In this document: piece after piece, positions 3,576 through 62,373 of the stretch
Layout of the letters: each line of letters starts with the position of its first letter
How positions within the stretch are numbered: the first letter of the stretch is position 1
The notes under the pieces: generated by a model
What the model was told of the DNA's origin: nothing
Databases searched by the model: none
What the model saw: the letters and a program-made list of their open reading frames with translations, nothing else
Made by a program: the position numbers and the translations under genes
From: an uncultured Bacteroidaceae bacterium
GTDB taxonomy: Bacteria; Bacteroidota; Bacteroidia; Bacteroidales; Bacteroidaceae
Direction of reading: 5' to 3'
Assembly (NCBI GenBank): GCA_944320785.1
Contig: CALUIR010000002.1
Location: 1 to 64,000, forward strand
Length of the DNA stretch: 64,000 bases

Positions 3576-3665
3576 CCGCATGGTTCCCCTCATCGAATGC
3601 CGATGAGCGGTTGCGTTCCATCGCAAGCGGCTGCGCACAGGATAAAAAGCCTCCTTGAACTTTCC

Positions 3666-3951
3666 CCATAAAATCGCGGATTTTACAGGAAAAGTGCGTG
3701 CATTTTTCAGCAAAAATTCGGAATTTTACTGCATGAAATTCAAGGAGGTTCCAAAGGACAGACTCCCATCACAGGCATAAGCGCACTTCCCTGCCCCGCC
3801 GTTGGCAAAACAGTTCCCAGAACATTTCAAAAAAGCACTTAGAACTTTTCACGAAACTTCATAGAACAATTTCAAAAACCTTGGAAGGTTTTGCATGAAA
3901 CCTTCCAAAGTTTCGCAAAAACCTTTGGGAGGTTCCGCCGCCCCTGCCTCA
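3666..3951. repeat. Intergenic 22-bp-period degenerate tandem array A
   Basis: Thirteen 22-bp units can be laid end to end up to the rnr stop codon. The clearest are units starting at 3820, 3842 and 3864, each beginning AAC and preceded by AG, with AGAAC at 3818, 3840 and 3862 (exact 22-bp spacing). The unit at 3820 matches the unit at 49822 in 19 of 22 positions. Adjacent units form a stem (TTGGAAGGTTT at 3880-3890 with AAACCTTCCAA at 3897-3907) that, on the minus strand, is followed by a T-rich run and could terminate rnr. Confidence 0.8.
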
Positions 3952-10628: not shown

Positions 10629-12854
10629 TCAGGCATAACTGTGCATGCCGCCCAGCAAGAAGTTGACCCCGAAATACGTGACCAACACCGCCAAGAATGC
10701 AAATATGGCAAACAAATGAAAGGACATGGGACGGCGGAAACAAGGCAAAGAAGAGACATGGAAAGCCGAAGCATAGACCAGCAAGGTAATCAAAGCCCAC
10801 ACTTCTTTCGGATCCCAGCCCCAATAACGCCCCCACGACACATTCGCCCATACCGCTCCAATGAAAATGCCTGCCGCCAACAGGAACACAGCCGGATACA
10901 ACAAGATGCGGCTCACGACCTGCAAGCGGACAACCTGTTCGGAAGCATTGCCCAGGCCATTCAGCACAACAGCCGTCACCCCATTCAACATCATGAAAGC
11001 AAACAAGGCATAGGCCAGCATGATGGCCATGACATGCACACTGAGCAAAGGGGAAGAAAGCACCGGCATCAAAGGCGTGATCTGGGGAGATGACTCTCCC
11101 ATCATGGCCACCAACAGCGCGAAACCGGCCACCATGAAAGCAAATGCCCGCACCATCGCAAAACGCCTCCGCAAAAAGAATGCAAGCAGGCAGGAACACC
11201 AAGCCATGAATTGCATGGTCTCAAAGCCGTTAGACAGAGGAAGGTGTCCGCCCGCATAGCCGCGAAACGCCAACATGGCAGTGAGATAAACAAAAACGAA
11301 CGCCAGCAGCACATCCAACAAACGGGGCAGCCAACGGAAAGGAAACCGCCGCGCCACCATGCGGAAGCAATAGAAAACAAATGCCAGCAACCCCACAGCA
11401 AGGCAAAACATGGCAAGCAGGCGGCCGTTGCTGAAACGGTTATACCATTTCTCGGCCTGAAAACGTGAGGCAGAGGGCAACACGCCGCCGGCAACCTTCT
11501 GCTGGTAAGCCCGCAACTTGCCCACCAATTCCACCACTTCATCGTAACGCTTCTCTGCTACCTTCTCCCCCACATAACCCATCCATTTCCGGACAAAGAC
11601 CCGTTCATCGGACGGCATGTCGTAGGGCAGGCGGTCCGCAAGAGAATACCATGCAAGCTGCCCGTCCTCTCGGTTGCAATAAGGATAAATCGCCCACAAG
11701 CTGCCCGTACCCGCCATGCAGGCAAGGCTGAAGGCTTCATTGGCCGCATCCCATGCACGCCGCACGCCGGCATTGGATGCATCACGCACGGATTTCTTCA
11801 ATTTGTACCCATCCGCCCCGGCAAAATCCACCAAACGTGCATAAACACCTTCAATGCCCAGCAACTCCCTTATCTTCTTTTCACGGACACGGATGACCGG
11901 TTCTTCCTTCCAATCATCGTAAAAGAAGAACCATCCTGTCAGCACTTGCTCGGAAGTGAAACCTTTGTAAGAGGGCTTGCCATACAGCTTGACCGTAAAA
12001 TCGCGAGCCAACGTCTGAAGCGGGCAGATGCGCCCGTTGCAGTAAACGTGCAAATCCCCAAAAGCACCGGCTACCTGCTTCGGAAGGACTTGCGGCAACG
12101 ATTCTGCAGGAAGGCAAGACGGAAGCAGGGAAAATCCGGCAACAAGCGCAACTTTGGCCAACAAAGGATGGTGCAACAACCGGCGGAAAGCACTGTCGCG
12201 CCAAAAGAAAAAGACAAGCATGGAACACAACAAGGAGGCATAGCCCGCATAGGTCACGGCAATGCCCCACGGGTCGCACGAAACGGAAAGCGTCACCCCG
12301 TTGCCGTCATCATCATATCGGGATTGATAGAAACGATAATTCCGGAAAATGAAAACATGGTTCATGGACACCTCGCCTTCCAAACGGTTGCCGTCAGCAT
12401 CTTCCACCACAACGTGGCTGACATAATCCATCGGCGTGGAAGTTCCCGGATAACGAAGCAACCGGAAATCCTTTAAAGAAATCTGGAAAGGAAACGGGCT
12501 GCTCCCTCCGCCAGACAGCAAGAACCGGCAGGCAGGCGGGGCATCGCGGCGCAGATGGACGCTGCCTTGCATGCCCCACACATAAGTAATGAAAGCACCG
12601 GCCAAAACCAGCAGGAACGACAAATGCAACATCGCGACAGGCAGATGCCGGAAAACGCCCCGCCGAAACAAATAGAAAACGGAAAACAAGGCCAGAAAGG
12701 CCCACAAAGCGACAAAAACCGGCGATGAATAAATCCAACGAACCACAAAAGAGGTGCCTTGCAGTTTCTCCAAGACCGTGGCTGCCGCCAGCACTGCAAC
12801 CAACAACCCAGCAAGGCCAAAAGACATGCATTTCAAGAAATTCATCTTGCACAT
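10629..12854 (-). CDS. ResB-CcsA fusion, cytochrome c biogenesis (system II)
   Basis: A 741-residue membrane protein that exports heme and attaches it to CxxCH motifs of periplasmic cytochromes. The N-terminal part has ResB-like membrane helices (about 5-30, 40-62, 70-92) and a periplasmic region. The C-terminal third is CcsA-like, with at least six helices and the heme-handling tryptophan motif WGRYWGWDPKEVW at about residue 675. It is the last gene after porin, imelysin and di-heme oxidoreductase, so a dedicated role in maturing that two-heme protein is likely. A terminator-like hairpin at 12871-12913 sits between it and the oxidoreductase gene and may lower its expression. Confidence 0.9.
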   Translation of the reverse strand: MCKMNFLKCMSFGLAGLLVAVLAAATVLEKLQGTSFVVRWIYSSPVFVALWAFLALFSVFYLFRRGVFRHLPVAMLHLSFLLVLAGAFITYVWGMQGSVHLRRDAPPACRFLLSGGGSSPFPFQISLKDFRLLRYPGTSTPMDYVSHVVVEDADGNRLEGEVSMNHVFIFRNYRFYQSRYDDDGNGVTLSVSCDPWGIAVTYAGYASLLCSMLVFFFWRDSAFRRLLHHPLLAKVALVAGFSLLPSCLPAESLPQVLPKQVAGAFGDLHVYCNGRICPLQTLARDFTVKLYGKPSYKGFTSEQVLTGWFFFYDDWKEEPVIRVREKKIRELLGIEGVYARLVDFAGADGYKLKKSVRDASNAGVRRAWDAANEAFSLACMAGTGSLWAIYPYCNREDGQLAWYSLADRLPYDMPSDERVFVRKWMGYVGEKVAEKRYDEVVELVGKLRAYQQKVAGGVLPSASRFQAEKWYNRFSNGRLLAMFCLAVGLLAFVFYCFRMVARRFPFRWLPRLLDVLLAFVFVYLTAMLAFRGYAGGHLPLSNGFETMQFMAWCSCLLAFFLRRRFAMVRAFAFMVAGFALLVAMMGESSPQITPLMPVLSSPLLSVHVMAIMLAYALFAFMMLNGVTAVVLNGLGNASEQVVRLQVVSRILLYPAVFLLAAGIFIGAVWANVSWGRYWGWDPKEVWALITLLVYASAFHVSSLPCFRRPMSFHLFAIFAFLAVLVTYFGVNFLLGGMHSYA

Positions 12855-12870
12855 AACCCTATCCCATCAC

Positions 12871-12913
12871 AAAAAACGCCGCCCCGGCGCGGCAAACAAC
12901 CCGCCGGGGCGGC
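12871..12913 (-). terminator. Intrinsic terminator or attenuator between di-heme gene and ccsA
   Basis: A 12-bp G+C stem (GCCGCCCCGGCG / CGCCGGGGCGGC) followed on the minus strand by GTTTTTTG. It lies inside the presumed operon, 17 bp before the ccsA start, so it probably gives partial read-through. Confidence 0.8.
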
Positions 12914-12928
12914 AAACAAGCTGCTACC

Positions 12929-21654: not shown

Positions 21655-21786
21655 CCCGGCGGGAACGGGATACGCGTCCCGTCGGAAATAGATACGCATC
21701 CATTTTGAAAAAGACACGTATCCATTTTCAACGACACCGGGATGCCGCCGGGACACGCGTCCCGTCCTGCGGCCGCCGCGCAAAAG
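21655..21786. repeat. Intergenic 22-bp-period tandem array B
   Basis: Six units in 22-bp register between rnc and the GH3 gene. GATACGC-like cores recur at 21669, 21691 and 21713 (exact 22-bp steps), and TCCATTTT at 21699 and 21721. Units contain imperfect palindromes such as ACGGGATACGCGTCCCGT. The sequence is unrelated to arrays A, D, E and F, but the period is the same. Confidence 0.75.
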
Positions 21787-26248: not shown

Positions 26249-26556
26249 CCGCAAAGCAAGGCCCGCCGATTCAGCCCGCTGCCTTTTCCAATCTGCCCGC
26301 ATGGGAAACCCGGCTTGCCCGTGCAGGAAACCCCATTCATACGGATAACTTCTTCATCCTTAAGCTAAGGATATGTATCCTCAGGTTAAGGATATATATC
26401 TTTAGGCTAAGGATGCACATCTTTAACCTAAAGATAAAGAAGTTGCACGGCTAAACCGGGTTTGCCAGCCGCATAAAGCAGACTTTCTACCCGCATGAGA
26501 TGAAAAAATTCGCCGCATTCTTCCGCTTTCTTCCCCGCAATCCGGATAAATTCCTA
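26249..26556. repeat. Intergenic 21-22-bp-period tandem array C
   Basis: Fills the divergent gap between two -7 boxes. TAAGGAT-like cores recur at 26366, 26387, 26408 and 26429 (TAAAGAT in the last), exactly 21 bp apart, and CCGCA recurs at 26469, 26491, 26513 and 26535, exactly 22 bp apart. Units with CCCG (26271-26336) continue the pattern upstream. The unit sequence changes gradually along the array while the period holds. Many units are imperfect palindromes (AAGGATATGTATCCT). Confidence 0.8.
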
Positions 26557-35442: not shown

Positions 35443-35684
35443 CCAACGTTTGCGCGGAATCCTGAAGCCTCGCCAACGGGTTGACCCGCCAACTCAAAAA
35501 GGACATCGGGAACATTCCCAAAAATACGATGAACTTTTAAAAAACTCCTTAGGACAATTCAAAAAAACCCATAGAACTTCTGCAAAAAGTCCTGTGAACT
35601 GTCCAGCAAACTTTACCCAATAAAACCGCGAATTTTACGTGAAAAATTCCGATTTTTACCCGTAAAACGAGCGTGCTTATTGCA
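35443..35684. repeat. Intergenic 21-22-bp-period tandem array D
   Basis: Eleven units in 22-bp register between two converging genes. GAAC/GGAC cores occur at 35510, 35531, 35552, 35574 and 35596 (steps 21, 21, 22, 22). Positions 35605-35662 match 40101-40158 of array E in 54 of 58 bases, all four differences being transitions. It belongs to the same family as arrays A, E and F. Confidence 0.85.
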
Positions 35685-40026: not shown

Positions 40027-40190
40027 AAAGTTTCCGAAACGCCTTCCTGTGTTTAAGGCAAAACGTCCCAAGGTTCCAGCGAAATCATTGAAACTGACGG
40101 AGCAAGCTTTACCCAATGAAACCGCGAATTTTACGTGAAAAATTCCGATTTTTGCCTGCAAAACAAGCGCATTTTCTTAAAAAAACAAGC
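40027..40190. repeat. Intergenic 21-22-bp-period tandem array E
   Basis: About seven units between divergent tolC and dapB. CG/GC centres followed by A/T runs recur: CGAATTTT at 40125, CGATTTTT at 40146, CGCATTTT at 40168 (steps 21 and 22). Positions 40101-40158 are the 58-bp block shared with array D. Arrays D and E thus flank the three-gene efflux operon in the same orientation. Confidence 0.85.
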
Positions 40191-49777: not shown

Positions 49778-49909
49778 CAAATCACGAAACACTTTACAGA
49801 ACTTCCGCAAATTGTTCACAGAACATTTCAAAAAAGTTCATAGTACTTTTTCTAAAACATTCCAATGTTTTTTGAAAACCTTTGGAAGGCATTCATGCAG
49901 GCACCACAA
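49778..49909. repeat. Intergenic 22-bp-period tandem array F
   Basis: Six units running to 3 bp short of the beta-barrel gene stop. AGAAC or AGTAC cores at 49798, 49820 and 49842 are exactly 22 bp apart. It is the closest relative of array A (19 of 22 identical between the units at 49822 and 3820). In both cases the array follows a minus-strand stop codon directly. Confidence 0.82.
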
Positions 49910-62263: not shown

Positions 62264-62373
62264 TCCCGGCGGTTGGCAGAGTTTACCCGCATAAACTCTG
62301 AGTTTATCAGCATAAACTGCGAGTTTATCACAGCAAACTGTGGGTTTTATAAGCAAAAGCGGCTTAAAAGCCT
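62264..62373. repeat. Intergenic ~22-bp-period tandem array G
   Basis: Five units between the leuS promoter and the following gene. GCATAAACT or GCAAACT cores occur at 62289, 62310, 62333 and GCAAAAG at 62353 (steps 21, 23, 20). Cores pair with GAGTTTAT within each unit, so every unit can form a short palindrome. The last unit merges with the terminator at 62356-62402. Confidence 0.75.

Follow-up and report, generated by a model that had tools for sequence, protein, structure and literature searches.

What are the short tandem units that occupy many of the gaps between genes in this genome, and what keeps their spacing constant? The question arises from a window of 64,000 bp, bases 1–64000 of contig C2 of a 2.57 Mb genome (hereafter G000). 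In it the original prediction, made from the letters alone, described at least seven gaps built from units lying 21–22 bp apart (range 20–23) and suggested as their cause either local duplication or a chromosomal protein bound in phase along the helix. A conserved protein encoded in the window has its nearest relatives in Bacteroidaceae such as Mediterranea, Phocaeicola and Bacteroides. In order to answer the question we read 1.61 of the 2.57 Mb of G000, together with 0.87 of the approximately 2.7 Mb of a second genome of the same genus (G001). Genes were called with a purpose-written hexamer scorer and start positions are therefore approximate; at one gene considered below (C10) the start overlaps the gene's own array.

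Each of the seven stretches was scored for base self-matches at lags 20–23 and compared to a null model of 300 dinucleotide shuffles. All seven exceed the null model: 3666–3951 (z 7.9), 21655–21786 (z 12.6), 26249–26556 (z 17.6), 35443–35684 (z 3.8, p 0.003), 49778–49909 (z 6.2), 62264–62373 (z 16.1) and, most weakly, 40027–40190 (z 2.3, p 0.033), the sequence of which is a near copy of units at 35612. At control lags of 26–29 and 30–33 the same stretches reach z 1.3 at most. When entire gaps are scored, of the 24 gaps in the window that reach 80 bp five attain z of 4 or more, namely those of 3666, 21655, 26249 and 62264 and the gap holding a further array at 12846–12928; the gaps containing 35443, 40027 and 49778 fall below z 4 on this measure.

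The period is a property of the genome and not of the window alone. In 853 kb of G000 the base-match autocorrelation of intergenic DNA peaks at lags 20–23, 42–45, 63–66 and 87–90, and in coding DNA, over lags 12–45, it shows essentially the codon period alone; across the full 1.61 Mb the intergenic peaks are seen again, lag 21 scoring z 24.2 and lag 22 z 18.6. Among 299 G000 gaps of at least 80 bp, 54 exceed their shuffles by four standard deviations at lags 20–23 and 26 do so at the double lag of 42–45, compared to 1, 1, 2 and 0 at the unrelated lags 14–17, 25–28, 30–33 and 36–39. Arrays occupy 107 of the 554 gaps in the 1.61 Mb that measure 80 bp or more; G001 has the same periodicity, with arrays in 58 of 287 gaps, and pooling 72 loci from elsewhere in the order gives z 7.4 at lag 21 and z 9.5 at lag 22. 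Counts at z of at least 4 shift slightly between random shuffles (one locus, L282, scored 3.9 and 4.3). The intergenic excess at lags 21 and 22 on which the original prediction depended is thus present, and the periodicity of its seven gaps is real; the looseness that it allowed is not, for each family of units described below is fixed at 21, 22 or 23 bp, and two full turns of 10.5 bp fit the 21-bp families only. Intergenic DNA of both G000 and G001 also carries a broad extra excess of self-matches at lags 8–12, perhaps a palindromic half-period.

The array parts located within the window are given here, one per line. Several share a family with the array upstream of a gene for an HU-HIG protein, in what we term the leader of that gene; leaders are named by contig.

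3670..3739, strand not applicable: family 5 array of units of the type AAAAT N5 ATTTTAC, ~21 bp; TRF at 3670–3733, BLAST match to the C31 leader at 3653–3739 (E 8e-5)
3819..3878: family 4 units AGAAC...AAGTTC, 22 bp (the AGAAC series of the original prediction); TRF
3873..3938: family 3 units AAACCTTNNAAGGTTT, 22 bp, terminating in AAAACCTTTGGGAGG; TRF, compound layout
12846..12928: further array of 20-bp units, absent from the original seven; z 6.7
21668..21723: family 6 array, three units GGATACGYATCC, 22 bp; shares its family with the six-unit C13 HU-HIG leader
26350..26442: family 1 element, consisting of cap TTCTTC, four 21-bp palindromic units (starts 26356, 26377, 26398 and 26419) and cap AAAGAAG; shares its family with the C20 HU-HIG leader
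35515..35600: degenerate units resembling family 4, assigned by eye; z 3.8, p 0.003 for 35443–35684
35612..35656: family 5 units; aligned by BLAST with the HU-HIG leader of C31 (E 2.9e-4)
40115..40160: family 5 units, a near copy of 35618–35660 by eye; lag test weak (p 0.033), and the C31 leader gives no BLAST match here at E 1e-3
49795..49890: units of family 4 and then of family 3, 22 bp; z 6.2, compound alignment
62281..62338: family 7 array, three units GTTTATCNNNATAAAC, 21 bp; z 16.1

The original prediction held that four arrays share a sequence family and that three keep only the period. Shared families are indeed present; the window holds at least six, several of them mixed within one gap. 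The mixed form made of families 5, 4 and 3 in 3666–3951 recurs in many gaps of both genomes. A feature that had been missed is that the units are palindromes: 88 of the 107 arrays in the G000 sample contain palindromic units at p<0.05. Unit length is fixed within each family, and unit number is often fixed too.

Family 1 is the clearest instance. Counting arrays of at least two units in the 1.61 Mb, ATCYYYARSYTRRRGATRYRY is repeated four times at exactly 21 bp in 34 of 39 arrays; every one of the 109 steps is exactly 21 bp and all 39 arrays are intergenic. In the window, at 26356, the unit is ATCYYYARSYTRRRGAT followed by a 4-bp joint. This joint alternates purine and pyrimidine (R-Y-R-Y) in 109 of 109 cases, a pattern that lay outside the search criteria of the script. 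Across copies, and with the centre excluded, the core differs by 8,437 transitions and just 99 transversions. This ratio must be read with the search in mind: as a unit could break the R/Y pattern at no more than two positions, transversions were restricted in the 17-bp core, though not in the joint. The flanks of the same elements differ by 15,654 transitions and 17,124 transversions, 78 ordinary orthologous gaps by 1,210 and 918, and one orthologous pair of cores from G000 and G001 by 22 transitions and no transversion. Some 50 bp of flank is shared among copies (information content 0.77 and 0.74 bit, compared to 0.13 at random; 16 copies, G000). In loci fetched from two other genera, four units are found in 8 of 11 arrays (G031) and in 5 of 8 (G022), again counting arrays of at least two units; in both genomes the caps are some six bases long (TTCTNT/ANAGAA), and no sharing of flanks is visible past ~6–12 bp. 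Counting three two-unit matches to an array, the 137 such matches put family 1 at up to an estimated 46 copies in the genome.

Family 2 comprises ACGATTASTAATCGT, repeated three times at exactly 23 bp in 23 of 29 arrays of the 1.61 Mb; all 56 steps are exact, 28 of the 29 arrays are intergenic and a spacer of 8 bp separates the units. The claim that units adjoin with no genuine spacer is thus only partly right, given the 4-bp joint of family 1 and this spacer of family 2. Unit sequences in both families are under strong constraint. Families 3, 4 and 5 of the G000 sample likewise lie in gaps: family 3 in 15 of 15 arrays (17 of 17 steps are 22 bp), family 4 in all five arrays of at least two units, and family 5, as found by BLAST with the C31 leader, in 25 of 25 hits spread over 18 distinct gaps. 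Family 6 occupies five gaps, its home leader included, and the family 7 pattern is represented by a single array in the 1.61 Mb, with a similar array at G001 C30:52578.

Some further observations concern the arrays themselves. In G001 the spacer between family 2 units is itself a palindrome, ACACGTGT, in most of the pairs listed (e.g., C13:110933-110970), so that the whole forms one long palindrome. The two strongest arrays of G000 lie at C1 154604-155159 (ACCCAYGCATGGGT, six units) and C9 10429-10780 (GTAC-N5-GTAC, eight units at 23 bp); neither adjoins a detected HU-HIG gene. Along the sampled contigs the minimum distance between members of the same family is 6,005 bp for family 1 (p 0.011) and 11,275 bp for family 2 (p 0.002), and the evenness of family 1 spacing is not unusual (coefficient of variation, p 0.72); these post hoc figures are a weak hint that copies avoid their own kind along the chromosome.

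The genes beside the arrays share no evident function. We analysed 70 of 72 neighbours of family 1 and 56 of 58 of family 2, the rest being very short or duplicate and genes cut by the ends of pieces being excluded; no Pfam family occurs in more than four of either set, the commonest types being AraC-type HTH (4 of 56, family 2) and TonB-plug (4 of 70, family 1), and a common neighbour function was accordingly rejected.

The lead came from comparing family 1 neighbours across G000, G001, G031 and G022: in both G000 (C20) and G031 an HU-HIG gene is present with a family 1 array upstream. HU-HIG proteins (Pfam PF18291) are HU-like DNA-binding proteins, and these genomes carry several paralogs. 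The proteins of C20, C13, C11, C10, C5 and locus L196 of G031 score 43.9–81.1 bits against a cut-off of 26.2, and that of G001 C7 matches as a fragment only (29.6 bits). The C20 protein also exceeds the cut-offs of PF00216 and of NCBIfam TIGR01201, for which the other HU-HIG proteins are weaker or below, and a search of the PDB returned one weak match, to HU (5eka, E 4.7e-4). PF18291 matches at E<=0.001 are found in all of 61 genomes, in 60 of them above the cut-off; G000 has 11, and the leaders of seven (C5, C10, C11, C13, C20, C31 and C39) were read.

In order to ask how regularly such genes carry arrays, an HMM built from four G000 HU-HIG proteins was run at a threshold of E<1e-4 against the sampled sequence of G000, G001, G031 and G022. 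All eight genes that pass have an array in the upstream gap (z 9.3 to 41.8), with a different palindrome for each paralog; two weaker matches at G000 C7 (E 2e-4 and 5e-4), which lack an upstream gap, were excluded from the counts, and among loci L061–L140 the HMM found no HU-HIG relatives. In G000 and G001, considering upstream gaps of at least 80 bp and arrays at z of at least 4, an array precedes 7 of 7 HU-HIG genes compared to 163 of the 937 remaining genes (p 5.5e-6); raising the threshold to z 9 gives 6 of 7 and 102 of 937. C20 is the discovery case among the seven, and the remaining six are six of six. With three leaders added later the lag test gives 9 of 10: C39 has four 22-bp units GTGCAA-N6-TTGCAC (z 26.5) and G001 C34 is also positive, but C31 (G000:C31:15288), with degenerate family 5 units and z 1.9, fails, and its assignment depends on the family match alone.

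The leaders connect these genes to the dispersed arrays. That of C20 (G000:C20:7478) is a family 1 array and that of C13 (G000:C13:733) a six-unit family 6 array, and in the 1.61 Mb of G000 four leader families recur at dispersed positions: family 1 (39 arrays), family 2 (29), family 5 (18 gaps) and family 6 (5 gaps). Five of the seven window stretches share a family with three HU-HIG leaders, 3670 and 35612 (and, by likeness only, 40115) with C31, 21668 with C13 and 26356 with C20; the seven G000 leaders read yielded no partner protein for families 3, 4 and 7. Dispersal is not general, because the families in the leaders of C10, C5 and G001 C7 are found nowhere else in the sampled gaps of their own genomes.

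Across leader arrays from all sources, 22 of 27 are palindromic at p<0.05 and five are not significantly so. The motif TANNTTTG, which we take to be the Bacteroidetes-type -7 promoter motif, lies within 60 bp before the array in 9 of the 27, compared to an expectation of 2.4% per 75-bp stretch. The statement that arrays are not simply promoters or terminators applies well to the dispersed copies and less well at HU-HIG genes, where arrays stand upstream of the start and some lie just behind a promoter motif.

HU-HIG relatives in named records were sought with tblastn in a plasmid collection, which returned Bacteroides finegoldii, Phocaeicola massiliensis, Parabacteroides distasonis, Bacteroides sp., Segatella hominis and Treponema saccharophilum. 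We took 24 of the 26 matches listed (H20 and H23 duplicate H26 and H24; we also omitted the phage hit H15 and an additional place in one of the records); in unannotated records start codons were estimated, and upstream stretches were cut at 400 or 600 bp. At lags 20–25 an array is present in 16 of the 24 HU/HU-HIG leaders, compared to 1 of 24 at lags 26–31 and 4 of 24 at lags 14–19; other gaps of the same loci, whose lengths do not match those of the leader stretches, have arrays in 8 of 41 cases (p 2e-4). For 13 of these 16 leaders, 60–100 bp separate the end of the array from the start codon.

Eight of the 24 named-record genes have no leader array, and in four of these eight an N-acetylmuramoyl-L-alanine amidase gene lies just downstream. 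At L280, L282, L284, L285 and L287 an HU-HIG gene stands near an amidase or carboxypeptidase gene and the leader array is absent at z of at least 4 (L282 at 3.9, 4.3 on rerun); two of these loci carry a protein annotated as 'smalltalk'. A further amidase-linked gene, at L281, does have an array, which is not palindromic. Genes linked to amidases or carboxypeptidases may be a separate functional class. Outside Bacteroidota, plasmid pTS1 of T. saccharophilum (L288) has an HU-family gene with a 21-bp array (z 10.3) 276 bp before the start. An HU-HIG protein query also matched one phage record.

Arrays and proteins were also compared between species. For 162 of 550 tested G000 gaps a counterpart exists in the G001 sample. 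Eight such gaps carry family 1 in G000: G001 keeps it in one, has a different core in three and has none in four, and the three replacement cores, read by eye, are three-unit, 21-bp and palindromic, with outer flanks partly shared. Family 2 occupies five of the orthologous gaps; in three of these G001 retains three units, 23 bp apart, with an A/T centre instead of C/G. The exact family 2 units of each genome show the same contrast, 81 of 86 having a C/G centre in G000 and 20 of 20 an A/T centre in G001; thus a near-universal property of the copies has changed while their places are partly kept. We wrote down beforehand that A/T-centred 23-bp units should be found at the gene for the G001 ortholog (83% identical) of the protein paired with family 2. 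The leader of that gene (G001 C34) contains ACGATTAATAATCGT, AAGATTAATAATCGT and ACGATTATTAATCGT, spaced by exactly 23 bp (z 11.5), as predicted.

C13 shares 81% identity with its G001 counterpart, and their leader units differ, GGATACGYATCC and CCCTATAGGG; the presumed DNA-contacting arm, with a boundary that we set from the general topology of HU, is identical at 10 of 21 positions compared to 123 of 144 elsewhere (p 2.6e-4). The C20 protein and its G031 counterpart, which both have family 1 leaders, show no such contrast between the arm (17 of 27) and the rest (117 of 180). In the 61 genomes family 2 arrays occur in two, and the same two carry the family-2-type HU-HIG protein (best elsewhere, 38% identity). 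Family 1 tracks its partner poorly in the same set: G008, G043 and G044 have proteins 56–60% identical and no exact family 1 match and, conversely, G022 (13 matches) and G001 (4 matches) have only relatives of 42–43% identity.

Because each HU-HIG gene has its own version of the array, the arrays are probably private docking sites of these proteins. We consider it probable, judging from sequence comparison, that they serve as HU-HIG binding platforms which are autoregulatory at the home gene and which, for some paralogs, also exist as dispersed copies. Of the two explanations first offered, binding by a chromosomal protein is supported, with the HU-HIG proteins of the HU/IHF superfamily, most of which bear an array in their own leader, as candidates whose binding is predicted; local duplication alone does not fit families 1 and 2, because unit number is fixed, neighbouring units differ and spacing is exact. 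On the platform reading each paralog would recognise its own palindromic unit of 21–24 bp, usually repeated three to six times, with an HU-HIG dimer on each palindrome and several dimers side by side. The array at the home gene would block the paralog's own transcription, a role suggested by its position upstream of the gene's start codon, and the dispersed copies would form short protein–DNA complexes of fixed size within gaps, organising DNA or setting expression.

Several other explanations deserve consideration. Dispersed arrays could be the cores of non-autonomous, MITE-like mobile elements, moved by HU-HIG proteins or by an unknown transposase, with any host function secondary. Being intergenic, present in tens of copies, subject to turnover in the eight orthologous gaps (1 kept, 3 with another core, 4 absent in G001) and sharing ~50 bp of flank among the 16 family 1 copies, the arrays do resemble such elements; however, no transposase appears among the 25 Pfam families listed for each neighbour set (of 125 and 75), the sharing of flanks past ~6–12 bp is not visible in G031 and G022, and the units are strongly constrained. 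We regard this as unlikely to be the whole account, although spread as a mobile element and HU-HIG binding can both hold, and copies may have spread in this way. Minisatellites, formed by replication slippage or local duplication in the absence of any bound protein, would likewise be tandem and intergenic, and some arrays do have 5–8 near-identical units; the fixed number and exact spacing of families 1 and 2, the recurrence of four family 1 units in G031 and G022, and the near-absence of transversions from the family 1 core compared to its flanks make this explanation hardly credible, even if local duplication may produce the longer arrays of 5–8 units. Nor do the arrays look like CRISPR: units abut or have joints of 4–8 bp and diverge, with no unique spacers between identical repeats. 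A phage origin was also rejected, as window segments 26300–26470 and 3640–3950 found no DNA match among phages and no family 1 was found in viral_contigs (the corresponding plasmid DNA search was limited to the neighbouring RNase R gene as query).

Palindromic units, and leader arrays that would be transcribed from a promoter in front of them, might also be expected of rows of RNA hairpins acting in transcripts, a reading that we judge very unlikely. Rfam has no match (0) in the window, and the arms of family 1 vary independently: at positions 4/14 the combinations CA, CG, TA and TG occur 19, 20, 14 and 16 times. In gene direction, positions 4/14 have TG 19 and CA 15 times, and positions 5/13 have CA 16 and TG 5 times; this test is insufficient by itself, because family 1 elements lie in both orientations. 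Repeated in the orientation of the elements as set by their flanks (4 of 34 elements have a margin of 2 bits or less), it gives CA 80 and TG 60, with arm correlations (phi) from -0.29 to 0.15. With independent arms and no covariation, the hairpin reading is rejected for family 1, the family examined, and the independence points to double-stranded DNA being read. REP and BIME sequences are dispersed extragenic palindromes associated with the Y1 transposase RAYT. The arrays resemble them in being intergenic palindromes in tens of copies and differ in their tandem units, strand-independent arms and other period; PF01797 has no match in G000 and G001 (both ~84–85% complete) or in G031, and one partial match in G022. 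We rejected this explanation, the likelihood of which is negligible.

The closest known system is BrickBuilt, a MITE of Porphyromonas gingivalis comprising tandem 23-nt units without spacers in 19 intergenic copies (Klein et al. 2015, PMC4596501). Its unit number varies, its ends are IS5-like and it is reported in P. gingivalis and P. gulae; BrickBuilt_14, the shortest copy (84 nt), is the one of the 19 that is listed beside a PF00216 (HU) gene (PMC4596501, Table 1). The paper reads the element as a MITE and is not known to propose a partner protein (PMC4596501). Compared by description, the two have in common the order Bacteroidales and tandem intergenic units; unit length here is 23 bp in family 2 and 21, 22 or 24 bp in others. 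They differ in that here there are many families, a fixed unit number in two of them, and HU-HIG leaders. BrickBuilt is described with a leader and tail bearing IS5-like terminal inverted repeats; family 1 has short TTCTNT/ANAGAA caps.

Known regulators offer a second comparison. ArgR operators are paired 18-bp ARG boxes ~21 bp apart and Lrp-type operators have multiple sites; both are bound by oligomers and autoregulated. Tandem palindromes about two turns apart, with oligomer binding and autoregulation, are what we propose here; the fold is a different one, however, and those systems have few units and one specificity per genome instead of a paralog family with private sites. The HU/IHF superfamily does include sequence-selective members, IHF and phage TF1, and HU-HIG proteins are HU-related by PF18291, but we know of no tandem palindromic platforms or paralog-private arrays in that superfamily. 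In the literature searched (titles and abstracts of open-licence papers) no paper tying HU-family genes to such arrays was found. DNA-binding proteins with tandem operators are known already, as is HU-HIG as a named Pfam domain; their link to arrays appears to be new.

In family 1 the conservation of the purine/pyrimidine pattern suggests a reading of DNA deformability, as would be expected of an HU fold. A wider picture may be drawn, more tentatively and with somewhat less than even confidence: a chromatin-like system in Bacteroidales with many specificities, in which paralogs would own private palindromes, form complexes of fixed size (in family 1, four dimers over 80 bp that would read chiefly the R/Y and flexible-step pattern, given that nearly all substitutions are transitions) and rewrite their specificity genome-wide as arm and copies change together.

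Bacterial HU proteins serve as the textbook case of DNA binding with almost no sequence specificity. If HU-HIG paralogs of gut Bacteroidales do have private, probably autoregulated and in some cases dispersed platforms, then a set of uncharacterised genes would acquire targets, an oddity of intergenic DNA across the sampled order would be explained, and the paired proteins and arrays would provide natural protein–site pairs in which to study the evolution of DNA specificity.
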